Of a stretch of 37,870 bases of DNA, positions 3,448 through 28,086 are shown one piece after another. Positions within the stretch are counted from its first letter, which is position 1, and each line of letters starts with the position of its first letter. The DNA is taken from positions 1 through 37,870 of IMG/VR virus record IMGVR_UViG_3300037674_000211; one strand, written 5' to 3'. The DNA comes from a virus. The notes under the pieces were generated by a model. It was not told the DNA's origin. It did not search any database and saw nothing but the letters and a program-made list of their open reading frames with translations. The position numbers were made by a program, and so were the translations under genes.

Positions 3448-5369
3448 TATGCAACCTCTCCCATGAGCCTACCCAATCCAGTTACAAGCTCATAAGCATT
3501 ATTAATCCCCCGTGGACTTTGATCGTATTCGTCTGTTTGTCGAAGCCAGCGAGCAAAATCCCCACCAGCCATCTCCATTTGTTCTTGACCTTCTACAGTT
3601 AAACCGCCAAGCTGAACAGCCATATCTTTATGGCGACCATCCCATTGAGGGCTATACCCCATAACAGAACTAAAGATCCCGTTATAAGCACCCACAATCG
3701 AAAGCGGAGTTTTACCAGCTTCAATACGATCTTTCCACGCAGGAAACAGCAAAGCTGCCTGCTCCATCATCTCATCTTCAACCAAATCAACAGTTGTCTC
3801 ACCCGTAAACAGTTGTTGAGAACGCCGTTTCAACAACTCTTCATCCGGGTCCATCAAATACTGGCGGTACAGATCTTTGATACTGCTTCGGAAATCCGAA
3901 ATAGTTCCACCAGCAGGAGCCCCTGCACCAAAATCGAAAAGAGGACTTCCCGTATCTGTTGTCGCTGTAACTAAGAAATCTTTTATTTCGGCAAGGTTTA
4001 GTCCTTGCAAATAGGATTGTTTCGCTAACTCCCAAATCTGGTTGTCGTCAAGGTTTATGTTGGCTTGCCCAAGGATCTGTTCAAGTTGTTCAACCTGATT
4101 GGAGATCAGGTCAAGACGACGAGTAGACCATTGATCTTCACCATCACCAGCACTGTTCCACTGGTATTCTCTGTCTGCTCTACCAACTTCACTGTCTTGA
4201 TAGTGGTCTGTTTGGTAGTAAATACTTTTAATCCATTGCTCCATTTCTGGAGTGCCATCTTCAAGGCCAAGAGGATTCTCTTCAATGAGTTCAACAAGAT
4301 CAACCATTTCACCCGTAATCGGGTGTTCAACTAATACTGAAGGATTTCCTCGTAAGTACTCCCACATCAAAATATCTAGCTTAGATGTCTTGGACTCAAT
4401 GCTTTCTTCTAAATCTTGTTCCGGGTTAGCGAATTGTCCTGACCGATTTGGGTCTTCAATAACTATTTCTTCTTCCCCCATGACAGGCGGAGCATCCGTA
4501 GGGGGGCCTTCGAAACTAGCAGTTTCTCCGACCATAACTTCAGGACCACCAGAAACTATGTTGCCTTGGTCATCATAAATAACTGGCTCAATATCTTCTG
4601 TTTCCGGGCCTAAATTGAACTGTCCTGTTTGCCACGGGTCAGTAACAAAATCAGGGTACATCCGTTTGTAATCATTAAGTGTTTCGGTTATGTCCTCACC
4701 AGTCATATCTTCTGTTTTTTCAATAGCTTCTTGCGTTTCAGTACCATCGAAGCCATCAACCGTTACACCGACAACCGCCTGTATCTCAGCAATACCAGCC
4801 GGGTTGTACCCTATGTTGTCTGGCTTAACAAATTGTTTACGACGGAAAAGCTCTAGATCATCTTCAACGTCCCAATCCGCAGGCAAATACTTATCTGCTA
4901 GATCGCCAAACTCTTGTTGCCAGTTCGGTTGACTATTGTTATCTAATTTCTTTTCGCTATTAACCCATTCATCATATATATTTTGACCTCTGCGCACTCG
5001 CTCGGAAACAACTAATGCAAGTGCACGCAAATTATCATCCACATTATTTAGAAGCGCATCTTTCAGAGATTCTCGGGAACTGAAATCAAGTCCACCCTTG
5101 TCTGTTGTGGGGGCACCCCATCGATAACTTAAATCACGGCCCTGAGGATCTTTATCAGTGACATTTACTTGCCAGAATCCAAGAGAATATTCTCTGTTTT
5201 CAACATCACGAACGGTCTCATGTTGCTTGTCTCTAAGATCAGTCCGCATAGGTGTCAACCAATGCGTTTCTTCTTGGGCAAGCGCCATTAGATGTGGAAT
5301 AATTTCGCCACGAAATCCGAGACTGTAAAGACCCGTGATAACAGCGTGTTGGAGTTCTTTTAGATTCAT
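3447..5369 (-). CDS. Internal virion protein with lytic transglycosylase-like domain
   Basis: 640 residues. The N-terminal 130 residues resemble an SLT-type muramidase: a helix with the candidate catalytic acid (ALAQEETHW, Glu33/Glu34) is followed by YSLGFWQVN (61-69), matching the S-x-G-x-x-Q block of lytic transglycosylases. Around residues 185-220 a short segment (AEIQAVVGVTVDGFDGTETQEAI) resembles a peptidoglycan-binding repeat. The rest is acidic and unassigned. By analogy with T7 gp16-like proteins it probably opens cell-wall peptidoglycan during DNA entry. It overlaps both neighbours through TAATG and TGATG junctions. The catalytic assignment rests on motifs only. Confidence 0.68.
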   Translation of the reverse strand: MNLKELQHAVITGLYSLGFRGEIIPHLMALAQEETHWLTPMRTDLRDKQHETVRDVENREYSLGFWQVNVTDKDPQGRDLSYRWGAPTTDKGGLDFSSRESLKDALLNNVDDNLRALALVVSERVRRGQNIYDEWVNSEKKLDNNSQPNWQQEFGDLADKYLPADWDVEDDLELFRRKQFVKPDNIGYNPAGIAEIQAVVGVTVDGFDGTETQEAIEKTEDMTGEDITETLNDYKRMYPDFVTDPWQTGQFNLGPETEDIEPVIYDDQGNIVSGGPEVMVGETASFEGPPTDAPPVMGEEEIVIEDPNRSGQFANPEQDLEESIESKTSKLDILMWEYLRGNPSVLVEHPITGEMVDLVELIEENPLGLEDGTPEMEQWIKSIYYQTDHYQDSEVGRADREYQWNSAGDGEDQWSTRRLDLISNQVEQLEQILGQANINLDDNQIWELAKQSYLQGLNLAEIKDFLVTATTDTGSPLFDFGAGAPAGGTISDFRSSIKDLYRQYLMDPDEELLKRRSQQLFTGETTVDLVEDEMMEQAALLFPAWKDRIEAGKTPLSIVGAYNGIFSSVMGYSPQWDGRHKDMAVQLGGLTVEGQEQMEMAGGDFARWLRQTDEYDQSPRGINNAYELVTGLGRLMGEVA

Positions 5370-6718
5370 CAGACTGTTATTCCCATCACCTTCGCCAAGG
5401 TGTTAGCTCTACTCAAATTGTTGCTAGTCGCAACTTCGTCAGCAAACTCACCCTCGATGCGTTCCCCGAACATGGTTTGCAACTCTGGTTGAGTAACATT
5501 TTTGCGACCCATTGTTTCCCTTTGAATCTCATCAGTCCACTTTGTAACCAGAGCACGGAACCTCGGATCGTCACCACTCTTACCTGTCAACGTAGCCATA
5601 ACTTTGCTAGCCACAGCATTCCCATAAGACGAACCGATAGACACTACCGCTCCAGCGTTTTTAGCAAGCTGAAACAATTCATCTGAAATGTTTTGGACCT
5701 CTTCAGGATTCCAAACTTCAGGTATGTATTCACCACCCAATCCAGTGAACCCACCTTCAGTAATGTTTGCCATACTTTGTGCATACGACTGTTGCTGAAT
5801 TAAAGCCCTACGAACATTCTCATCTGCATAGATGGCATCCGGGTTAGTGAACATTGTGTCACCAATAGCGGAATACATGAACGAAGTATTACCCGTACCT
5901 AAAGCTAAACCTTCAGCGATACGCTTTTGATTCTCTGGTGTTTGCGCCAAATAGACTTCGTAAGCATTGGTGTAGGTAAACGGGACATCTTCGATGAGAG
6001 CCGGTGAAAAAGACATACCTGCTTCGGGATCATCTGTCCACCGAAGAGACATATAGTCTTCACCCATAACAGATTTCATCATCGGTGACTCCGGGCGAGC
6101 TTCGAACACTTCAAGATCTTGGATACCCATTTGTCCGGTGACTGGAGCCAAGTCATATTGGCCTCGGTCTAATGGTCCTTCTGGTTCACCAAACTCAACG
6201 GGGGTCCACGCAGCCCAGTTCTCTGGGTCAATCTGAGATTGAATGTATGTGTCGGGAACCAGTGAACGGCCAGAACCAGCAGGATCAGGGATACGTTCAA
6301 GATAAGTAGCTTGTTCTCCAGTACGTTCCGGTAAAGGAATGACGTTGCCTTCAGCATCTCGTGGAATGTCTTCGGGAGCTACCCCTTGTTTTTCATAATC
6401 CTCTGTGATTTCTTCAATATCCAAAGGAGTGGGTTCTTCTTCTTCTTCTTCCTCTTCGTCGTCCTCCCTTAAATCGGATATTACCCCTTTGTCAACTGTG
6501 AATTGTTTCCGTATTAGCTCACCCTCCTCCGAATCCCAAGCGTTCTTAAGCCACTCCCATATACCCGAATCATCTTTCACAGCTTCGGCAACAGCGATAT
6601 GAGCTTCAGCTTCAGTCATCTTCCCTTCAGCTTGTAACCGAAAAACTTCAGCGACCACATCGAAAAACGAAAGCATACCTTCTTCTAAGAAATCGGGAAT
6701 CCATCTTTTGCCTGCCAT
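5369..6718 (-). CDS. Probable internal virion protein with poly-Glu tract (449 aa)
   Basis: Not recognised. It starts ATG overlapping the stop of the 2279-residue gene (TAATG). The first 70 residues are helical (FFDVVAEVFRLQAEGKMTEAEA). Residues about 84-94 hold an acidic run of mostly glutamates encoded by a GAA/GAG tract (about 6435-6465 on the plus strand), a likely slippage-prone stretch. Then comes a Pro/acidic linker and a helical C-terminal half. There are no membrane segments. Its position between the giant protein and the transglycosylase protein suggests a partner in the ejected internal complex. Confidence 0.6.
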   Translation of the reverse strand: MAGKRWIPDFLEEGMLSFFDVVAEVFRLQAEGKMTEAEAHIAVAEAVKDDSGIWEWLKNAWDSEEGELIRKQFTVDKGVISDLREDDEEEEEEEEPTPLDIEEITEDYEKQGVAPEDIPRDAEGNVIPLPERTGEQATYLERIPDPAGSGRSLVPDTYIQSQIDPENWAAWTPVEFGEPEGPLDRGQYDLAPVTGQMGIQDLEVFEARPESPMMKSVMGEDYMSLRWTDDPEAGMSFSPALIEDVPFTYTNAYEVYLAQTPENQKRIAEGLALGTGNTSFMYSAIGDTMFTNPDAIYADENVRRALIQQQSYAQSMANITEGGFTGLGGEYIPEVWNPEEVQNISDELFQLAKNAGAVVSIGSSYGNAVASKVMATLTGKSGDDPRFRALVTKWTDEIQRETMGRKNVTQPELQTMFGERIEGEFADEVATSNNLSRANTLAKVMGITV

Positions 6719-9700
6719 TACGCCGCTACCTCATATTCGGTCATTAAACCGGTAGGCAAATTACCTACAGAAATTGAAAGCATGTTACTAAAATACCTGT
6801 CATAGATTGGACCGAAGTTGGGGTAACTTAATACTTCCAACAAGAAAACGTCCCACTCTTGACGAATGTCTTGGTTACCAGAATAACTCATCCGCAAATA
6901 GTTACGGTTGTTGGTACCCTCAGCACGTTTCACCATCTTCAAAGCAAGCTGGTCATGCTTACCAACGAACATTGCGATCTGGGGAATCTCAGGCCGATAC
7001 GCAAACTCTTCTAAAGAAATAAACTCTCGTAAACCGGCAAGAACTTCTTTTTGTACTTGTGGTTGGCTGAAAGTATTGAACTCTTCTAACCAGAAAGAAT
7101 TTTCTCGTCCGAGATCCTCAATAAATTTGCGACGATCTTTCCACAAATCAAAGTTTGAGTTAGCTAAAAGACTTGACGAGCCTCCACCCATTGCACGGTT
7201 ACGAAGTTCGTCGTCCATCGAGTTTCGGAAGACACGCCATTCTCTCCAACCCATACTGACAGACGCATCGGTAAGAATGCCTGCCGGGTCCATGTAATCT
7301 CGACGGCCATCTCGTGCTTCGAGTTCTGCAACTGCACGGTTGTAATTGAATTGGACATCAAGTGCACCGTATTCGCCTCGGACTAGTGGAGCTAGTTGAG
7401 GGTTGTTTTCCATGAAGTCTTGGTGTTCTTTATATTTTTGGTGGCCTTCTAATGTGCCTGCTCTAACTCCTTGGGCCATTGTTGTACGTGCTGTGAATGC
7501 CCACATATCTGGATGATTTTCGAGAAGCCATGCGGTTGCCACATCAGGGCCATGTTCTTCTTGTACTTTCCAATACTCGTTGATGATTCCCCAGTATGGT
7601 GATTGTTGACGGAACGAAACTGGGACGGCTATTGAACGAAGCATCCTTATACCAAAGATTGCTTGTGTGCGCCGATAAACCTCTTCTTCGAATGCAGCTA
7701 ACTCTGTCGCATTTTGTGGAAGTTCTCGTCCTTCTTCAACGTATTGGGTAATCATGTCTTGGGTTACTCTGGCTGCGGTTTGCGCTTTACCGGCATCAGT
7801 CATACCAGTAGCTTTAGCTCCATTACGAATCCAAGACGGAGTATGCGAATTGAGGAATCGTGTATATATCTCTTCGCCTTCTACGAATCCGTAAGGAAGC
7901 ATCCAACCAAGAGATTCATCTAGCTGTGGGTTGCTTACAATCAATTCAGAAACGGAGAATGAAACAAGTGGACCGAAACCGGGAAGAGCGCCGATCATGG
8001 AAGCAGATTCAAGGTTAAGGTTGATCTCTTCGTTCGCTAACTGTGAAAGTTTCCCAAAGAGTCTTATGTCTCCAATCTTGGAGTCAAGGAATCCGGGCAT
8101 TGGCATAACAATGCGAGGGTTACCATCTTCGTCTTCGCCAGTAACAAGGTTCCATGCTCGTAAAGCACGGGCAACGAACACAGGGTTTTCGCCTGCTAGC
8201 CCCATCCATCGTGTCGCTACTTCTTGCCATGCCCCGAGGAACGGGAAAAGTTCTGTAACTATTTCTTCGAACCGTGTACGGTCAGCAAGTTCATACAAAA
8301 TCTTTTTAGTTTCATCTAAAGCGTACCGGCGAGAACGTGTAGCCATTTCTTCTATGGCGTTACCTGCTTCGGGAATTGTGTACGATCCGTCGCTGTTCCG
8401 GTAGCGTTGCATCTCGATTGCCATTTGGCGTTCGTATGCTGCTTCGAACATTGTTCCACGTGAAACAACATTTTCAACTTCTGTCAGGTTTTCAAACCAT
8501 GTGTCAGTTACGTGACGAATAATTTCTTTGGCTTGTTTAATTTGTGTCCCAGTTTTGAGTCCATCCAAATATGAGGAGTCATTAACTGTTTTACCAAAAT
8601 CGATAAGAGGTGCAAGACGATCAGTGAAATCAGTTCGATTGACTCCCCGTAGATCGTCAGCACCAATTTGTTTCCCGATCCCTCGGATTAACTCAATGAA
8701 TTCGAGTTGGAGTACATCTTTTGCCGCATTGGAAACTGCGCTACTCCCCTCCAAGTAAACTGCGTCATCCAACTTGTTTATAACTGCATAGTAAACAGCT
8801 TGATCGACAACGGTTCCTGTCGGAATATCACGTATGTCCCCTGTGTATGCAACTTCATCTAAAATTGTTTTCGCTCGTTCTCCCAAACGATCAACGATAG
8901 GTGCTATATCCCGATTCCATTCAATAAGCTCACCTTTAGCAAGTCGTTCTCGGACAATTGCAAACTCAGGTAAGTCCGGTACAAGACTGTTCGCTTCATA
9001 CCGTGTACGGCGAATCAGTTCCATTCGTGCTTCTGGGCTTCGCCACTCATCAGGTAAGCTATCCAGAACAGGTCGCCCTTCAGTACTCAACCATTCATAG
9101 ATTTCGTCATCTGTTTTGCCGAGCCATTGTTGCCGCCAAAAATCTCTTTGAACTGACTGCCCTGCCATCCCCGGACTACTCGCATGGTTTTGGATGAATG
9201 CGTTGTAAGCTCGCACGAAGGCTTCTGCTTCGTAAGGATCTGCAATGTTGTATTGGTGAGATTCTTCCCACGCTTCGTTTCGCCGCATTTCTGCATTTGT
9301 GTCAGACCAGATTTGGCGTTTCGTGGGGTTAGCACTATTAAGACGTTCGTTTACTGCTCGGACCTGTGGGTTGTCGCCCCACGGATTAGGCATAGCATTC
9401 GATCCGAGCATCGACTGGCCGTACCCTATGTCTCCTAAGAGTTCGGCTGCTTCATCAAATTTGCCTGCAATCTCTGGGTGTTCTTTCCGAAAGTTTTCAA
9501 CCACCATTTTTTGGTAGCTGGTGACTCCTTCGGAACGAGCGGCCAATAGTTTCGCTGCTTCTCGTCTGTCTTTCTTTGCTTGGGCGAGAACTTCGGCCAG
9601 TGTCATATCTGCACCGAGTTTGTTTACTTCTTCAGGAGTTAGGAAATCAAATTCAAGAACCGATCTATCGTCAAGTCCTTCCAATAGTGCACGTTCAGCT

Positions 9701-12700
9701 TGTTCTACTTCATCGACCATATGTTTGGCATCAAGAAGCAACGCTTCGCCGTATCCTGTAGATACTTTACGTCGAGCTAAAAGAACTTGGCTTTTGCGTG
9801 CATGTCGCCCATACATTGCTCCTGATGCTGCTGCGCCTGCTGGTCCTGCGAAGAAAAGGCCGAGTCCAGACATGAATACTGTGCGACGTTTTTGTCTACC
9901 TGCTGCATATTCTTCTCTGATGGTTTCATCCATCAAACCTTCGTAGTTTGTTTCTACTGTTCCTTCGTCATAACGCTTGTTGTATTCCTGAACTTTCTCT
10001 ACAAAGGTAAGCCCTACTCCGTCTTCGCCTAATACTTCATCAACTTTGCCGAGAACAATTCCTTGAACGTCAGTACCAGCACGCTCCAACCAACGAGCCC
10101 GAAGCCTGTCAAGCCTGTGTCCCATACCGGCCATAGAGTCTGCTACTCCGAGATGAGCGAAGTTACGCAACATGGAGTCAACATTGACAACCATTTGCCA
10201 ACGTGGGGTTAAAAGAACTCCTCGTTTCCAAGCAGTACTTATCATTCGTCGTGCTGCTTGCACTTTGGCACGTTCGGGGGCTATGTTGATTTGTTTGGGG
10301 CCGTCTGGTGTGGGAATGGTTTTCATGTCGCCCTTAACCATTTTGACGTAACGATCTATAAGGTCGTAGCGTGGCACCAATGAGGCTTTACGCATTTGGC
10401 TTGGGCTGATTGGGATACGCCGCTTAATTGTTTCGCCTCTGCTTTGTTCCCAGATAACTTCCGTGAAGTCCACGTTGCCAAAGGACCGTTGTGTTTCGTC
10501 GGCGGCTTTATTCAGAATTTCTTTTGCGTCAATGATTTGGCCGTTAAGAATTTGCCGTAAGTCGTCTGCGCCTAAGGTAACTTCAAGGCCGTCGTCAAGT
10601 ATTGGCCCTAACTGTTCAATGATTGTGTCGTTGATTCTTTTTACAACATCATCAAAGTGTGCTGCGAGAGCATTACGGTCGTTGGATTTGTTGAGGAACT
10701 CTATGAGTACGTCGTCGGCGTTAAGGCCAGCAGCTTCCAAAATGTTTCTTTGGGCGTAAGGAACTTCTGTTGCTAGTGCCGCAGGGATGCGTTGCACATC
10801 TCGAAGCATTCGCTCAACTTGTATATAAGCAGCGCTGGGTTGTTGTAGATCAATAATGTTTTGGGCGACTTTATCGACAATCATTTGGACAGCGTTCGTG
10901 CCCCGAACATTTCGATAGGTTCCAGATTTCTCAAAGAAGGTTTTGGCTTTGTAGCCAAGTCTGTTGCTTACACCTAGATAGGGAAGTTGTGCATCTGGAA
11001 GAGTGGGTACTTGGTGTGCATCAAGAATTTCGTCTGCTGCTGCTTTAACAACATTGTTGCCAACTTCGGTAGCGTATTTATCTAAGACTGTGGGCGTGCC
11101 AAATCCGTTGGGAACATCTTTAATGAGTGTTTCTACGATATTGTTTTTAAGGGAAAGAATTGCGTTCCACGGTGTATTCTTTAAATCCCCGAGGTCTTTC
11201 CACATTTGGTTAAACTCGGGTGTCCCCATTTCGGGAGTGCGGAACGATGGGGTATCTATTTGCCCCAAAAGGTTAGCGACACCGGTTTCGCCTTGATTCA
11301 AAGCGTCAGCGACAACTTCCATAACGTCGTCTACAAGTTGAGGATTCGAGTTAGCTAATGCCGCTCTTGCGCTTTCAAGTTCGCGAACCCGGCGAGCTAT
11401 CGTATCGACTTCTTGTAAATCGTTAGTCTGGTTGCTTCGCCGTTCAAGTTCAAGAATCTCGTCGGTCATCCTTTGCATCTCATCTACGAGTGCTCGGCCA
11501 CCGCCAAGGTTGTCTACTTGGAACATGATTGAGGCAAGTAAACCGGCTTGCCGTTCCAATGCCGGGAAGCCACCAGTACCAGCTAAAGCAACCTTCATTA
11601 GATTGTCGAACGGTAACCAACTCTGATTGGTGACTGGTCCGTCGCCTATGACTTTGGCAATCGTTTGTCCCCACGTGTACATATCTTGTGCTGGTCGGTC
11701 CCAGCCTTTGCCAAGGCGTCCTTGTTTGCCTGCGTCGATAAATGCTTTCCCGAACTCGTCTTCAAATCTTGTTGAAGTTTCGACTCTTGTCGGAGTTTCG
11801 ACTCTGGGGCTATCGGCTTTCCTTTCTGTGTCAAGCATCCAATCAATTAATTTGGCTCGATACGCCGGATCTTGTAAACTAGGTTCTCTAAGGGCTGATC
11901 CTTCAGGCCTTTTAGGGAATCTAACCTCGTCGCTCTTATGGTTTTTGCCTGTAGCCTTCTCTGTGTTTCTAACCTCGTCCCACAGTTCTTCTGGAGTTTT
12001 AGCTTCTAATTCTAAACGTCGGGCACGAATAACAGCTTCGGGGCCGGTACGAGGAGCCCTAGTGTCTATTACACGGAACTTGTCTTTAGGGATTCTTATG
12101 AACTTGTCTGGATTATGTGGTCCTTCGAAGGCAACACGATATTCGGAAGTGAAACGAGTATCTTTAATCCCACCAGCGTCTTCAACAATTTGAGACATTA
12201 CAGAAGCATCAATTTCAAAAATAACTCCATCTCCTGTTGACGGACCGTAAAGTGCGCTCTCTGTTCTTTTCGCATAATCAATAGCGGCGTTTATGTCAGT
12301 ACCAAGCGAAATTCCTGATTGTCCCGGTACAGCTTCTCTAGCGTAGAGAATAAGATCACCAGTTTGAGGGTCAAGGTATGTACCTAAATTGCTAGAATCT
12401 GCATGACGTGAACCGTGGTAAAGAACTTCATCCGCAATCGGCCCTCCACCTAATTTCTTTACCTCTGAAAAGCTGAGTTGTCCATAAACTCTTTGATGTA
12501 ATTTGTGACCAATAACATTTTCCGCATCAAGATATATAACTGGATGAACTAAACGATTATCTGGAGCTAAAGCATCAGGATCTCCAGCCCTTTTAGCTCG
12601 AACTTCTTCAGCTATGTTCCAGATTTCTGCACGGAACTTGTCGAACCCTGCACTATTGATTACTTCATCTACAGTGGGTGCGACTGTTTCGTCAAGGAAT

Positions 12701-13557
12701 GTGGGTCGGTAACTCCAGTTTTCCCAGAACGCTTCGTCACGTAAACGTGGCTGTCCTTTACGGTTCGGTTTTATTGGACGAAACTCGAATGGTGCGAGAC
12801 TTGTTTGCAACATCTTCGGGTCATAAACACTGGTCGCCTTATAAGTTTCTTTGGCTCGCCGCATTGCATAACCCCAGCGTGCTGCACGAGCAGTCAAATA
12901 GAGAGGGTCAAGCCCAATGTTCAAGGCAAAGTCAATAATGCCCGACGTTGCGAAATACCAGTCAGTTCCCTTGAACTCTTCAAGAGCTTTCGGGTCCATG
13001 ATGTCTATATGAAACGCAGATAAGGTTAACGCTTGACCTGCACTTCGGCTTTGTGTCACATCCCACGCTTGTTGGTATGTACTCCAGTTGTAGAGTTTGC
13101 TGTCACCCATACCGGGAACGAGTTGTTCGCCAAGGTTGCCGAATCTCTCCAGAATGTTTGTATCTTCGCCACCTATTTCTGAGGAAACCATTCGTTCGAC
13201 TGTGGCAAGTGTCCCGATTGGGCGGTCAATAAAGTTTTTGTAGGTGAACTGCATTGACTCCATGAACGGAGTCCAAATAAGAGTGCTGAACGGGTCACGT
13301 ATAAAACCGGGTAATGCGCCTACTGGTGCACCAATAACCCCTTCCGGCCCCATTAATGCACTTGCAACATTTTTTTCCCCGGTCCCAGTTTCGGACTGCA
13401 TCCCCATAATGTTGTCTTTGAAAGACTCAATGAGAGCATCTATCGGGTTAATGTTTTTTGCTGTGTGAACTGCTGCGTCTACAAAAAAATCAGCGGCCTG
13501 CGCTCCAAGATCAAAAGGAGCATCGACTATTTTGTCGAGCCGTTCGCTGAAACTCAT
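6718..13557 (-). CDS. Giant internal/ejection protein with ART-like domain (2279 aa)
   Basis: The largest gene, about 18% of the genome. It is mostly helical and soluble-looking. Around residues 378-475 there is an ADP-ribosyltransferase-like signature: LYHGSR (His381), SLGTDINAAIDYAKR (Tyr428) and SEYRVAF (Glu473), an H-Y-E arrangement like that of ART domains described in phage polyvalent proteins. Residues about 1229-1250 form a hydrophobic Gly/Ala segment (FMSGLGLFFAGPAGAAASGA) that could enter a membrane. The C-terminal third contains FEEIVTELFPFLGAWQEVATRW, a style I associate with large phage internal proteins. It overlaps the upstream small gene (ATGA). The likely role is to be packaged in the head and ejected with DNA, possibly forming a conduit and modifying host targets; the enzymatic part is inferred. 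Confidence 0.7.
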   Translation of the reverse strand: MSFSERLDKIVDAPFDLGAQAADFFVDAAVHTAKNINPIDALIESFKDNIMGMQSETGTGEKNVASALMGPEGVIGAPVGALPGFIRDPFSTLIWTPFMESMQFTYKNFIDRPIGTLATVERMVSSEIGGEDTNILERFGNLGEQLVPGMGDSKLYNWSTYQQAWDVTQSRSAGQALTLSAFHIDIMDPKALEEFKGTDWYFATSGIIDFALNIGLDPLYLTARAARWGYAMRRAKETYKATSVYDPKMLQTSLAPFEFRPIKPNRKGQPRLRDEAFWENWSYRPTFLDETVAPTVDEVINSAGFDKFRAEIWNIAEEVRAKRAGDPDALAPDNRLVHPVIYLDAENVIGHKLHQRVYGQLSFSEVKKLGGGPIADEVLYHGSRHADSSNLGTYLDPQTGDLILYAREAVPGQSGISLGTDINAAIDYAKRTESALYGPSTGDGVIFEIDASVMSQIVEDAGGIKDTRFTSEYRVAFEGPHNPDKFIRIPKDKFRVIDTRAPRTGPEAVIRARRLELEAKTPEELWDEVRNTEKATGKNHKSDEVRFPKRPEGSALREPSLQDPAYRAKLIDWMLDTERKADSPRVETPTRVETSTRFEDEFGKAFIDAGKQGRLGKGWDRPAQDMYTWGQTIAKVIGDGPVTNQSWLPFDNLMKVALAGTGGFPALERQAGLLASIMFQVDNLGGGRALVDEMQRMTDEILELERRSNQTNDLQEVDTIARRVRELESARAALANSNPQLVDDVMEVVADALNQGETGVANLLGQIDTPSFRTPEMGTPEFNQMWKDLGDLKNTPWNAILSLKNNIVETLIKDVPNGFGTPTVLDKYATEVGNNVVKAAADEILDAHQVPTLPDAQLPYLGVSNRLGYKAKTFFEKSGTYRNVRGTNAVQMIVDKVAQNIIDLQQPSAAYIQVERMLRDVQRIPAALATEVPYAQRNILEAAGLNADDVLIEFLNKSNDRNALAAHFDDVVKRINDTIIEQLGPILDDGLEVTLGADDLRQILNGQIIDAKEILNKAADETQRSFGNVDFTEVIWEQSRGETIKRRIPISPSQMRKASLVPRYDLIDRYVKMVKGDMKTIPTPDGPKQINIAPERAKVQAARRMISTAWKRGVLLTPRWQMVVNVDSMLRNFAHLGVADSMAGMGHRLDRLRARWLERAGTDVQGIVLGKVDEVLGEDGVGLTFVEKVQEYNKRYDEGTVETNYEGLMDETIREEYAAGRQKRRTVFMSGLGLFFAGPAGAAASGAMYGRHARKSQVLLARRKVSTGYGEALLLDAKHMVDEVEQAERALLEGLDDRSVLEFDFLTPEEVNKLGADMTLAEVLAQAKKDRREAAKLLAARSEGVTSYQKMVVENFRKEHPEIAGKFDEAAELLGDIGYGQSMLGSNAMPNPWGDNPQVRAVNERLNSANPTKRQIWSDTNAEMRRNEAWEESHQYNIADPYEAEAFVRAYNAFIQNHASSPGMAGQSVQRDFWRQQWLGKTDDEIYEWLSTEGRPVLDSLPDEWRSPEARMELIRRTRYEANSLVPDLPEFAIVRERLAKGELIEWNRDIAPIVDRLGERAKTILDEVAYTGDIRDIPTGTVVDQAVYYAVINKLDDAVYLEGSSAVSNAAKDVLQLEFIELIRGIGKQIGADDLRGVNRTDFTDRLAPLIDFGKTVNDSSYLDGLKTGTQIKQAKEIIRHVTDTWFENLTEVENVVSRGTMFEAAYERQMAIEMQRYRNSDGSYTIPEAGNAIEEMATRSRRYALDETKKILYELADRTRFEEIVTELFPFLGAWQEVATRWMGLAGENPVFVARALRAWNLVTGEDEDGNPRIVMPMPGFLDSKIGDIRLFGKLSQLANEEINLNLESASMIGALPGFGPLVSFSVSELIVSNPQLDESLGWMLPYGFVEGEEIYTRFLNSHTPSWIRNGAKATGMTDAGKAQTAARVTQDMITQYVEEGRELPQNATELAAFEEEVYRRTQAIFGIRMLRSIAVPVSFRQQSPYWGIINEYWKVQEEHGPDVATAWLLENHPDMWAFTARTTMAQGVRAGTLEGHQKYKEHQDFMENNPQLAPLVRGEYGALDVQFNYNRAVAELEARDGRRDYMDPAGILTDASVSMGWREWRVFRNSMDDELRNRAMGGGSSSLLANSNFDLWKDRRKFIEDLGRENSFWLEEFNTFSQPQVQKEVLAGLREFISLEEFAYRPEIPQIAMFVGKHDQLALKMVKRAEGTNNRNYLRMSYSGNQDIRQEWDVFLLEVLSYPNFGPIYDRYFSNMLSISVGNLPTGLMTEYEVAA

Positions 13558-18353: not shown

Positions 18354-18773
18354 CTATTCCCAGTTAGGAGGGTTAGTCATTGAAACGTCAGCATCTCTGT
18401 AAGTCCTTAAGTTGTAGCGCTGAGATCCAAGTCTAGGATAAGGCCCACTGACATAGAGACCCGTCCTCTTAGGATAACCGGGGCTCACATTATCCAATAC
18501 ATCTCTTTTCGAGTAGGTGTGGTCACGTCTATCACGGGCACCCCACTTACCGCTAGTACGAGCCGCAACCGCAGCCGCATGAGCAGGATTTCTTTTAGCC
18601 GAAGGATTACGACGTGCGGTTGACCCAAGTTTGGAGGACCGTCTCTGAGCAGCCGCAGCAGCAGGATTTAGCGTACCTCCTCTTTGACGAGATTGGTGTG
18701 ACCTTATCTTCATATAGATACCCGGTTTGGGCAGGTTCGACCGCTTAGGCGGGTTTTTTCGTCCTTCAGCCAT
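18354..18773 (-). CDS. Basic protein at the head of the late operon (139 aa)
   Basis: ATG at 18771-18773 has GGAG seven bases upstream, so I prefer it to any longer frame. The product is very basic, with Ala/Arg-rich segments (LNPAAAAAQRRSSKLGS and RNPAHAAAVAARTSGKWGARDRR) separated by Pro and Asn, then a Tyr/Arg-rich C-terminus. This suggests nucleic-acid binding, possibly as a packaging or head factor, but no fold is recognisable. It is the first gene of the leftward unit, facing the long non-coding region. Confidence 0.6.
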   Translation of the reverse strand: MAEGRKNPPKRSNLPKPGIYMKIRSHQSRQRGGTLNPAAAAAQRRSSKLGSTARRNPSAKRNPAHAAAVAARTSGKWGARDRRDHTYSKRDVLDNVSPGYPKRTGLYVSGPYPRLGSQRYNLRTYRDADVSMTNPPNWE

Positions 18774-19186
18774 AAAAAATCTCCAAAACAATAAGAAAGG
18801 GAACGCAACCGATGTTACACTACAAACCTACCCGCCGCTAACACCGGTCCGATCGCCCGTCAGAGGGGCTTCAGACTCTATGTCCAGACACGACGGCCCA
18901 ACACAACGAGGGGGCATAGAGCGACCAGCACAGAGAGGCTCGGTCAAGGCAAGAGAGGCCCCAACACTCGGAGGACACCAAGGACATAACCAACACAACC
19001 CCCAAACAACTGAACCAAACTCCCCAAAACACTGATATTCATATATATGTGTGGGGGTGGCTCGGCACATCCCCCTGTACGCCGGGAATAAACCAACCAG
19101 ACCACGCAAGGGGAGTGAGACTAAGTTTGTTGTGGGGGGGATATGCCTTATCCTGAGCTTTAACGACAACGATTAACGATTAACGA
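18774..19186. other. Non-coding divergent region, left part
   Basis: No convincing gene on either strand. The plus strand is strongly T-poor from about 18883 to 19031 (about 5% T; A/C-rich with a few G blocks). CTCTATG (18876-18882) and CATAGAG (18915-18921) are perfect complements, as are CCGTC (18857-18861) and GACGG (18892-18896). CATATATATG at about 19040 is a palindrome, followed by a GGGGGTG...CATCCCCC hairpin. A weak rightward promoter-like pair, TTGTTG (19127-19132), 16 bases, TATCCT (19149-19154), lies just before the structured RNA. The leftward late promoter must be near here but I cannot identify it. Confidence 0.5.
19161..19169 (+). repeat. TAACGACAA motif, first of three
   Basis: TAACGACAA occurs at 19161-19169, 19696-19704 and 20700-20708, all on the plus strand: just before the structured RNA, just after it, and directly before the gene at 20720. 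The third copy runs into an AAAGGAG ribosome site. A tandem GATTAAC repeat follows the first copy. It could be a regulator or antiterminator signal, or a leader element shared by early transcripts. Function is not known. Confidence 0.45.
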
Positions 19187-19694
19187 GCGGCTTGGGGCCG
19201 CCATCGACAGGCACCGCTAGTGCGGTGCATTCCTGTCGAAACGTGTACGCCGAGATCACGGCTCTGCGCCGTGATTACCCAAGCAGAGCTTGGCTCTTGC
19301 TGGAGTACTCAGTGTCGTAACAACCACTCTCGATGGATCGGAGCGATCCACTTCCACGCAGGGAACGTGGAAGCGAGAACCACCCGACTCGGGTCGGGCG
19401 GTCGAGAGCACCCTAAATCCGCAAGCGAGCGGATTTGCCACCCCTGTGGCCGGGTGTCATAAATTTCCATCGCCCAAGGCGATACGGGAAATTGATGATG
19501 GAATAGGCAGACCGGCGGGCGCTGCGTCAAGAGAGCCTCGGCCCAAGGGCCGACCGCCCACATCATAGATGTGTCAGTTCCGTTACGAAGAAACCCGTTT
19601 CGTAACACAACTGATTCGGCGGCTTCGGGATCTTGACCCTACGCCCACTCGGCCTGCCTGTTCTGACACTTAACTGAGTAGAGGAACTCTGCTC
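19187..19694 (+). ncRNA. Large ornate structured RNA candidate
   Basis: Hand pairing gives nested helices. The 5' part has 19187-19191/19197-19201; 19205-19211/19232-19238 extended by 19212-19217/19222-19227; 19255-19262/19268-19275; and 19279-19284/19288-19293. A long-range helix 19306-19313/19673-19680 encloses four domains: 19327-19333/19402-19408 (holding 19334-19350, 19351-19373 and 19383-19398 hairpins), 19409-19413/19452-19456 (holding 19415-19436 and 19437-19450), 19462-19493, and 19505-19510/19654-19659 (holding 19514-19558, 19559-19573 and 19574-19614). Several helices abut with no spacer, as in coaxial stacks. The last hairpin, 19676-19694, has a U-G wobble that pairs only on the plus strand. 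No reading frame here has a ribosome site. Size and phage setting recall GOLLD and ROOL RNAs; class unassigned. Confidence 0.8.
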
Positions 19695-19723
19695 CTAACG
19701 ACAAAGAAAGAAGAAAAGTAAAC

Positions 19724-20524
19724 ATGTTGGATAATAAAAGTTCAGATACACAAATAGCGAACGCAATGGGGACCGACAACCCAGAGCTAATAGCCAAGGT
19801 TAAGGGAGGCCTAGCCAAGAGAAACAGTAGCAAAACCAGATCAGTTCACACCGGCGAGATGGTGGAAGTCCAAGAGCAAAACTCCGGGCATAACAGTGTC
19901 AACGCTACTGAAAGCCACTGGGTTGATGCGCTGAAGTCAGCGTGGGAAGACCTAGACAACAGCAGACCGGGCAAGGTCATCACTTTCTACACCGGTGACA
20001 ATCCGCCTCTGCATGATGACAGGGCAATACTCAACATTATGAACGACTGGGGTGCCAACAAAGTTGCCCAGTCGGAGGTGAAGGAAGACCAAGCGTACTT
20101 CAATGACACCTACCTGTACCCAGTGTTGGAACAAGCACACTGGACAGCAGTTCACAAGTTGAGCAGCGCTGGTTCGTCGACGCCGGAGGACCGCAACACA
20201 CGTGCACGGGACGACGAGAACTTTGGCCGTTTCGTGTTTATCACACGCTACGAGTGGACAGATGGTGCACGCTACTACGAGGTGCACATGACCAAGAACG
20301 ACAGCCGTCGTTACCGTGTCCATCAGTTGGTGCAGCTTGACGCCGATTGGGGCGATCAGCAGACACTTGACCGGCAGCGGATCTACAAGGTAATCAACGA
20401 TTACCAATGGAAGATCGCCGCACCGAAGTTGGCTAAGACCCGTGAGGGTAAGGTTGAAGCCTCGCAGAATGACGAGAACGTCAGCGGCGACGCAGGTGCA
20501 GCAGCACCCAGCGACTGGGCCTAA
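19724..20524 (+). CDS. Early protein of unknown function (266 aa)
   Basis: First gene of the rightward unit, starting 29 bases after the structured RNA; only a purine-rich stretch (AAAGAAAGAAGAAAAG) serves as ribosome site. The N-terminus (DTQIANAMGTDNPELIAKVKGGL) has a helix-turn-helix-like look. The middle is a mixed alpha/beta domain with many aromatic residues (RFVFITRYEWTDGARYYEVH), ending in a disordered Asp/Ala/Gly tail. No family recognised. It is followed by a strong terminator, so it forms a separate transcript, perhaps made early and abundantly together with the RNA. Confidence 0.75.
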   Translation: MLDNKSSDTQIANAMGTDNPELIAKVKGGLAKRNSSKTRSVHTGEMVEVQEQNSGHNSVNATESHWVDALKSAWEDLDNSRPGKVITFYTGDNPPLHDDRAILNIMNDWGANKVAQSEVKEDQAYFNDTYLYPVLEQAHWTAVHKLSSAGSSTPEDRNTRARDDENFGRFVFITRYEWTDGARYYEVHMTKNDSRRYRVHQLVQLDADWGDQQTLDRQRIYKVINDYQWKIAAPKLAKTREGKVEASQNDENVSGDAGAAAPSDWA

Positions 20525-20540
20525 GGCACACCGGGAAATT

Positions 20541-20580
20541 GGGAGTCAGGCGTGCAAGTCACGCTTGGCTCCCTTTTTTT
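20541..20580 (+). terminator. Rho-independent terminator
   Basis: A 14-bp stem (20541-20554 with 20560-20573, including two G-U pairs) with a CAAGT loop is followed by seven T (20574-20580). It closes the transcript carrying the structured RNA and the 266-residue gene. Confidence 0.93.
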
Positions 20581-27112: not shown

Positions 27113-27407
27113 CACTACCGAGATGTTAAATAGTTGGTGGAAAACACAGAAAGCAAAACCTTTAGTTAAACCAGCACGGATTAGACATATAGTCGAACTG
27201 GCTATTAATGCAGGCTGGACATTAGAAGACTGTTACTCGGCACTCGATACGACGTGGGCTTTCACTGAGTCTGCGTTCGAAACGGCGTTAAGGAAACAGA
27301 AAGAAGAACAAGAAGAAAAGTATGGCAAGTTAGGCAAACGTATTCTCAAACTGAGAAAGGAAAGAAAGGGTGAGAAACAAATGCAAGGGGAAACCCTCTG
27401 CGAATAA
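27063..27407 (+). CDS. Lys-rich helical early protein (114 aa)
   Basis: ATG 27063 follows AAGGAGAGA; it overlaps the resolvase-like gene by 50 bases in another frame. The N-terminus has an APAFTDTTEMLNSWWKTQKAKPL segment and LEDCYSALDTTWAFTESAFETAL, then a very basic C-terminal helix (KLGKRILKLRKERKGEKQ). Similar Trp- and Lys-rich small proteins occur near phage replication genes. Function unknown, possibly DNA binding. Confidence 0.65.
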   Translation: MGELIKLKVVQAPAFTDTTEMLNSWWKTQKAKPLVKPARIRHIVELAINAGWTLEDCYSALDTTWAFTESAFETALRKQKEEQEEKYGKLGKRILKLRKERKGEKQMQGETLCE

Positions 27408-27567
27408 CTACTCCAATGGATGTAGGTGTGCCGGGTGTAGACATGCATGGCGGACACATGGTGAAGAAGACAGGGTAAAGAAACGAAAGGGAACTAAACG
27501 TGATACTCCTGTGGTGGAACATGATGCATTTACTAGAGAACAAATCCTTAGAGCGAGGGCATCGTGA
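27370..27567 (+). CDS. Small cysteine-motif protein (65 aa), first of two
   Basis: GTG start at 27370, overlapping the previous gene. It contains NYSNGCRCAGCRHAWRTH, a C-x-C-x-x-C motif in a basic context, plus Cys5, so it may bind zinc. A related motif (GKCRCKKCAARI) occurs in the protein at 28376-28534. I recognise the G-C-R-C-x-x-C-R pattern from small phage proteins near replication genes. Nucleic-acid binding is likely but unproven. Confidence 0.62.
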   Translation: MRNKCKGKPSANNYSNGCRCAGCRHAWRTHGEEDRVKKRKGTKRDTPVVEHDAFTREQILRARAS

Positions 27568-27773
27568 GCATTGAAGCGAGCTTAAACTATGACCGATGGG
27601 GAGAGAACCCCGAGCTTACAGATCCTCGTGTTGTGCTGATAGGTAATCTAAGTGAAGGCTATGAAGTTCATGGGCCTTTCAATGGGTTTGATTCTGCTGC
27701 TGATTATGCAGAACATTTCATGCCAACACCGACGTGGATCATGCGACTAGAGGAGCCGTCACTACATGAATGA
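27564..27773 (+). CDS. Small early protein (69 aa), unknown
   Basis: GTG start overlapping the previous stop as GTGA. The product has a beta-like middle (DPRVVLIGNLSEGYEVHGPF) then FDSAADYAEHFMPTPTWIMRLEEP. It resembles short phage proteins of unknown function in early operons. No catalytic or metal motif. It overlaps the start of the next gene by eight bases. Confidence 0.6.
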   Translation: MSIEASLNYDRWGENPELTDPRVVLIGNLSEGYEVHGPFNGFDSAADYAEHFMPTPTWIMRLEEPSLHE

Positions 27774-28086
27774 TGATGAAGCTGACGAAGTATTGTTGTT
27801 GATGTCCCAGTTGTGGTGGAAGTCAAGTCGAGTGCCTGAAGGGACACTGAAGATCTGGCATTCATCTTTGATGAGCCTAGAGAAAACCGCAGTTACCCAA
27901 TGCATTAATGAACTTGTGCGTGACTATCCGTATTGGCCTGCAATTTCTGAGTTTCGTCAAGTGTATGACGCTATGATTCGGAGAGAGAAGATGGAAGTAA
28001 AACCGATCCAACGGGAGTACCTTCCACGAGATGAGAACATTAAAAGACTACGTGAATTGCGAGCTAACTTGAACGCTAAGGGCTAG
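27766..28086 (+). CDS. Helicase-loader-like protein (G39P type)
   Basis: 106 residues: an N-terminal acidic segment, VLLLMSQLWWKSSRVPEGTLKIWHSSLMSL, EKTAVTQCINELVRDYPYWPAISEFRQVYDA, and a basic C-terminus. The W-x(n)-W helix pair followed by a Pro-x-Ile-x-x-F block is the pattern of phage helicase loader/inhibitor proteins (G39P-like). No helicase is encoded here, so if correct it would recruit the host replicative helicase. Last gene before the hairpin at 28107-28147. Confidence 0.55.
   Translation: MNDDEADEVLLLMSQLWWKSSRVPEGTLKIWHSSLMSLEKTAVTQCINELVRDYPYWPAISEFRQVYDAMIRREKMEVKPIQREYLPRDENIKRLRELRANLNAKG

Follow-up and report, generated by a model that had tools for sequence, protein, structure and literature searches.

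What is encoded in the gap of about 1.4 kb that separates the minus-strand and plus-strand gene groups of this phage? The window, meaning the whole stretch of 37,870 bases analyzed here, is a virus record; contigs from marine samples are its close relatives. Left of the gap, minus-strand genes code for the major head protein, the terminase and a 2,279-aa protein; the last of these is a single gene (6718-13557) that lacks a Pfam match and might encode a giant virion protein. Directly to the right, plus-strand genes code for a DUF932 protein, a Cas4-like exonuclease, a Rad52-like annealing protein and SSB. No tRNA was found within the window, and PHROG and Pfam scans of the window proteins revealed neither ParA nor ParB, nor was a parABS system found. 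The right half of the gap holds the ornate RNA that the original prediction placed at positions 19187-19694. A structured region does exist there, but it makes up just the variable 3′ portion of a longer leader, and the prediction included neither the conserved 5′ core nor the promoter nor a link to RNA origins, which alter the interpretation. The RNA unit most likely starts near position 18828 on the plus strand and is predicted to end at a terminator at position 20580. We consider it probable that the locus serves as an RNA-based replication origin and that its transcript runs on through the ornate domain and a gene for a 266-aa protein to the terminator.

The proposal of a large structured RNA was borne out for the ornate 3′ domain (19187-19694, plus strand), which we call family A. 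The segment from 19160 to 19723 folds at -253.1 kcal/mol, compared with a mean of -186.8 for dinucleotide-shuffled sequences (z of -9.4), and none of 100 shuffles reaches this value. Homologues of the ornate region are present in four further distinct phages (L120/L083, L101/L012, L003 and L116), such that five distinct loci, including L034/L081, could be compared. When the structure predicted from the window (135 pairs in 20 helices) is placed on these loci, 87.4% of the cells pair, a fit that is favoured by the derivation of the structure from one of the five sequences, whereas slid controls pair at 33-44%. Changes on both sides are observed for 23 pairs, a number reached by none of 500 shuffles, and they are not explained by derivation from a single sequence alone. 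Examples of compensatory swaps include CTCTCG/CGAGAG to TGCTCA/TGAGCA, CCCGAC/GTCGGG to CCGGCC/GGCCGG, and CACCC/GGGTG to CAACC/GGTTG. Thus, the helices are kept with compensation in viral homologues. The preference for the plus strand had been argued from a single wobble pair. Folding energy alone favours the minus strand (z of -11.8), but the homologues carry 34 G-U versus 13 A-C cells when read on the plus strand, and a promoter-like element lies upstream in this orientation.

Two helices near the 3′ end deserve separate mention. A long-range 8-bp helix (19306-19313/19673-19680; TACTCAGT/ACTGAGTA) was recognized by reading the sequence and in the alignment, and because none of the five loci deviates from its CTCAGT/ACTGAG core, it is uninformative with regard to covariation. 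The terminal hairpin (19676-19683/19687-19694), which closely precedes the ribosome-binding region of the following gene, is kept in the homologues with one compensatory change from A-U to G-C. Both had been listed in the original prediction, which held that all helices nest without conflict. Both are indeed present on the plus strand, but they cannot form together because each uses nucleotides 19676-19680. The two helices are therefore alternatives that adjoin the start of the downstream gene.

That gene (19724-20524, plus strand) codes for the 266-aa protein and is found only adjoining family A RNAs. The protein family is encoded directly behind the RNA in five distinct loci, with identities down to 27%, and neither RNA nor gene is found alone. 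No Pfam or PHROG match was obtained for the protein, and its structure model is of low confidence and has no significant match in the PDB. An intrinsic terminator with a 14-bp stem and seven T nucleotides (20541-20580, plus strand) closes the unit formed by the RNA and the gene, and its bases are changed with retention of the stem in all five loci. No terminator was found between the ornate domain and the gene. It is possible that the ornate RNA and the 266-aa protein act as an RNA-protein pair. Our leading guess is that the domain regulates either processing or the next gene through its mutually exclusive helices. In a more specific version, the ornate domain would chiefly serve the 266-aa gene as an autoregulatory leader and be independent of the core, which would be compatible with an origin function for the latter. 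The strict co-occurrence, the shared terminator and the placement of the exclusive helices beside the ribosome-binding region all speak for this arrangement. Nevertheless, it is documented by five loci only, approximately 500 nucleotides and 20 helices would be large for a leader, and the fold of the protein is available only as the low-confidence model, and so we view this explanation as possible, if on the doubtful side.

A search with Rfam models, including those for GOLLD, ROOL and other families, gave no match for the RNA at the gathering threshold (the sole hit was a tRNA in another contig), and the GOLLD and ROOL models were absent even at E-values up to 10. All Rfam families were consequently rejected as candidates for this RNA. 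The suggestion of a divergent GOLLD or ROOL member is thus not supported, given also the lack of a tRNA in the window, whereas the alternative suggestion of a new class is borne out as far as the RNA fold is concerned.

The best-conserved DNA of the gap lies 5′ of the ornate domain. A joint search with the terminase and the ornate region revealed that about 20 marine relatives retain positions 18765-19124 at roughly 75-90%, while their sequences farther 3′ differ. No full-length sequence homologues of the gap region were found in named phages, where only a short core was matched. This core RNA (18834-18945) forms four hairpins, plus a pseudoknot that extends to 18969, and is located about 220-360 nucleotides upstream of the ornate domain. 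It resides behind an extended -10 promoter and is common to about 40 distinct marine, freshwater and actinobacterial phages. The promoter element (TGTTACACT; 18813-18821, plus strand) is positioned about 6-8 nucleotides before the likely RNA start at around 18828, and 21 of 47 distinct loci have a TGnTAnnnT sequence 32-48 nucleotides ahead of the core (mean of 0.4 for shuffled sequences). The fixed distance of this element and the covariation of the core hairpins are the basis for the predicted start and strand. A 9-codon ORF (18812-18841) that is conserved in marine relatives was rejected as a peptide gene, because it coincides with the extended -10 element and P1 and its reading frame is not kept elsewhere.

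The substructures of the core, all on the plus strand, are as follows. P1 (18834-18837/18845-18848) carries a 7-nucleotide loop, CUAACAC, and P2 (GCCC-GUCAGAG-GGGC; 18855-18869) is nearly invariant and served as a search motif, although its GCCC/GGGC stem is replaced by GCCG/CGGC in phages Alma, Gladiator and Benvolio. The long helix P3 (18876-18885/18912-18921) has two-sided changes at six of its ten pairs in the mostly marine set, and the P4 hairpin (GACCAGC paired with GCU-bulge-GGUC; 18923-18945) was defined from the core alignments. The P5 hairpin (18948-18969) contributes a pseudoknot (18953-18957/18965-18969) with two-sided changes at four of five pairs in the marine set. An invariant piece of the core, GATCGCCCGTCAGAGGGGC, is found in 37 viral contigs, whereas a looser form, TCGCCCGTCARANGGGCWTC, occurs in 76, of which five are chance matches to coding sequences; these five and a few weakly aligned matches were excluded from the counts. 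Among five matches in genome contigs, four were dismissed as chance and the fifth is a phage contig in a marine MAG. True members almost universally display P1 (usually with a 7-nucleotide loop), the nearly invariant P2, the long P3 and the P4 hairpin.

Covariation is evident in each set of sequences examined, wherein related sequences are counted as separate: the pairs altered on both sides number 14 of 25 in ten freshwater loci, 14 of 33, including some of the pseudoknot, in 16 mostly marine loci, and 21 of 24 in the model for 31 diverse loci. The alignment of the 31 loci was fitted to the model, with P1 and P2 being short and essentially ungapped, and its covariation score is 0.393 compared with 0.078 after shuffling. 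All five model pairs of P1 show two-sided changes in this set. Within the freshwater group (L092-L185, for example L151, L160, L174 and L178), the P2 loop GUCARAN and the P4 loop GAMCAGMCAA are nearly fixed on stems that vary freely, which suggests a conserved binding partner. The P2 loop strand resembles the decoding region of 16S rRNA, a likeness that we judged to be due to chance in all likelihood.

These data also bear on whether the hairpins act in DNA, for example as a single-strand initiation or packaging site. Both strands fold well and the large terminase gene is about 1.5 kb from the RNA locus, as might be expected for such an element. However, G-U cells outnumber A-C cells on the plus strand not only in the ornate domain but also in the mostly marine core set (32 versus 11), although the small freshwater set shows the reverse (2 versus 8). 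Moreover, the promoter-like element is held at a fixed distance, and related regions are transcribed. A DNA-level function is thus very improbable.

Conservation between phages extends to the core but not to the ornate body. Across the class as a whole, leaders barely differ from control windows in their folding (mean z of -1.6 versus -1.3, no clear excess), and so ornate bodies were rejected as a class-wide feature. The slot after the core shows no unusually good folding in freshwater and A4 members, and unrelated hairpin-rich stretches occupy it in other marine members, which indicates that the ornate domain is a lineage-specific addition. Among the latter stretches are a long interrupted hairpin about 600-900 nucleotides after the core in L037/L038, GCTTTTATGTTACA...TGTAACATAAAACC hairpins between the core and the first gene in L006/L016, and a structured segment (z = -10.6) about 450 nucleotides after the core in L140.

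The identity of the core is suggested by its relatives in named phages. A covariance model (R1) built solely from ten freshwater contigs recognizes, in the right orientation, the proven prophage origins of RedRock (E-value of 4.9e-7), Alma (1.7e-6), Gladiator (6e-6) and LadyBird (9e-6), these E-values being rough due to a short calibration and the scan covering four of five proven origins (the fifth being that of Et2Brutus). The window is recognized by the same model at E-values between 0.0024 and 0.0074, whereas about 30 more distant TerL relatives that lack the core gave no hit. The RedRock core (27564-27591) is on the strand opposite to parA and inside the region 27232-27897, which is an RNA-based prophage origin (PMC7157519). 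The motif led to RedRock, whereas Alma and LadyBird were found via sequence outside of it (BLAST matches begin after the core), and therefore provide an independent check. For five such phages, an origin region of about 600 bp is enough to let a plasmid replicate in M. smegmatis (Wetzel et al. 2020, PMC7157519). These regions produce an RNA transcribed in the opposite orientation to parA, work without any protein, and do not require the adjacent parABS (PMC7157519). There is strong evidence of kinship, and the core appears by covariance modelling to adopt the same fold as these RNA-only cluster A prophage origins.

Other named carriers of the core are the Gordonia phages Coeur, Rahul and GMA5 and the Curtobacterium phage Sunfish. 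All named carriers infect Actinobacteria, which provides only a hint regarding the host of the window phage. The 90-kb Gordonia phage Daredevil (L195) has a RedRock-type origin RNA near its left end (3507-3619; R1 E-value of 9e-6), and the 1.3 kb inspected contain no annotated parA. A 48-nucleotide core query additionally matched more than 160 Mycobacterium phages, nearly all of subcluster A4, where the core is located in an unannotated leader of about 600 nucleotides at the right genome end. Model R1 likewise recognizes the fold in this A4 leader.

The A4 association raises the prospect that the RNA is free-standing and abundant, and acts in trans on the host like the toxic Pleft RNA, with the ornate domain as its working body. 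In Kampy, which carries the core, the A4 leader region accounts for 41% of phage transcription at 5 min and 51% at 15 min (PMC4626039), far more RNA than a primer would need, and this abundance argues against the origin model. Similarly, D29, L5 and StarStuff, all cluster A phages, make a Pleft RNA that is reported to be abundant, stable and toxic, with an unclear role, the L5 locus being toxic (PMC5712189). However, D29 lacks the core, as R1 found no match at its right end, and it is the origin-like core rather than the ornate body that is conserved between phages. In the window, furthermore, the RNA runs straight into a gene without an intervening terminator. A trans-acting function is therefore quite unlikely.

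Between the core and the ornate domain are several further elements. A second promoter-like element, CTGAAC-18 nt-GATATT (19010-19039, plus strand), was read by eye; it is conserved in marine relatives, most of which carry GATAAT, although a promoter scan did not pick it up. It could be a second promoter or an AT-rich unwinding site. A hairpin, GGGGG...UCGGCACA...CCCCC (19053-19075, plus strand), is conserved in marine relatives as well, nearly all of which present TGAACCAAAC...GATAAT followed by this hairpin (19010-19075 in the window). The transcript then carries a run of seven G nucleotides (19134-19140). Runs of at least six G nucleotides occur 100-500 nucleotides after the core in 32 of 52 loci versus 2.6% of control windows, but C runs are likewise enriched and the mycobacterial members and origins examined lack G6 runs, and so this signal is only suggestive. 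The cumulative GC skew reaches its minimum 251 nucleotides after the core (245-323 in four relatives), where it coincides with the switch in gene direction. The promoter scan found no promoter-like site on the minus strand.

On the favoured reading as an RNA-based origin, transcription from the extended -10 promoter would generate a plus-strand RNA whose first ~140 nucleotides fold into P1 through P4 (and the pseudoknot in the marine group), as in the cluster A prophage-origin RNA. The core hairpins would hold this initiator RNA in its active form, in which it might open the duplex and supply a primer for extension by host enzymes. Downstream G runs might aid a persistent hybrid that provides the primer, as in ColE1 RNA II. 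The transcript would then cross the ornate domain and the 266-aa gene to the terminator, and the ornate domain might tune processing, stability or gene expression, perhaps via the switch between the long-range helix and the terminal hairpin. Our proposal that the phage replicates from this locus with its RNA as primer comes from sequence comparisons. Points against it are that neither a parABS system nor a sign of an antisense RNA I was found, that the mycobacterial origins examined lack G runs, that D29 with its abundant Pleft RNA gave no match to R1, and that ornate domains are not general in the class.

Some features of this arrangement are reminiscent of antitermination sites such as HK022 put and lambda nut, which modify RNA polymerase. 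The core hairpins, being tandem structures with conserved loops that immediately follow a promoter and precede the early operon, might act in cis on the polymerase and permit it to pass the strong conserved terminator that separates the first gene from the rest, and thereby to read the early operon. However, the fold in RedRock, Alma and LadyBird belongs to a small noncoding unit with no operon behind it, and the region is needed for replication and not for lytic growth. About 90% of the L5 Pleft transcripts also end after about 500 nucleotides (PMC5712189). An antitermination leader is thus unlikely. Deletion of the origin in Alma and LadyBird destabilizes the prophage but leaves lytic growth normal (PMC7157519), and therefore the RNA is not the lytic origin in these two phages.

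RNA-only prophage origins were described in 2020 in a handful of cluster A phages and without a structural model (PMC7157519). The common fold predicts the important stems and loops, and the mechanism can be tested by simple plasmid assays. It also joins these origins, for subcluster A4, with the abundant right-end RNA, and brings phages of Gordonia, Curtobacterium and uncultured aquatic hosts into the class, while the ornate domain represents an RNA family without an Rfam entry. Our findings suggest that an RNA-based replication origin, not previously described as a common RNA fold, is widespread among phages of oceans and lakes, many of which would have it in common. We give about even chances to the broader view that the P1-P4 class is the RNA-only origin of actinobacterial and uncultured marine and freshwater phages, lytic and prophage alike, with the abundant A4 right-end RNA as its lytic version and exchangeable ornate domains added by marine lineages. 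No description of the fold, or of a link between the A4 leader and prophage origins, was found in the open-access journal literature searched.

Among known systems, GOLLD and ROOL are also large, many-helix RNAs borne by phages, and GOLLD likewise has one conserved and one variable half. The conserved half of GOLLD is at the 3′ end (PMC12286853), whereas that of the RNA described here is at the 5′ end, and the present RNA differs further in having no Rfam match and no tRNA island, the latter being frequent but not strict for GOLLD and ROOL. The likeness to ColE1 RNA II concerns the proposed logic only, namely a structured transcript that primes replication and has G runs downstream, and no sign of an antisense RNA I was seen here. 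The A4 leaders of Kampy, Eagle and Wile (the Pleft region) resemble this locus in placing the core soon after a promoter within a long noncoding leader, and they are heavily transcribed early. They differ in that, judged by eye, the leader closes with a terminator-like end of its own and another promoter-like element precedes the first gene, and they lack an ornate domain as judged by folding score. RedRock-type origins also lack the ornate 3′ domain, whereas the RNA in the window has no parABS beside it, has a leader that enters the early operon, and has an origin role predicted from sequence. Nevertheless, the closest counterparts are the non-RepA prophage origins of the cluster A phages RedRock, Alma, Gladiator and LadyBird, which share the core fold and its orientation according to the covariance model, and which are noncoding, transcribed and independent of any replication protein.
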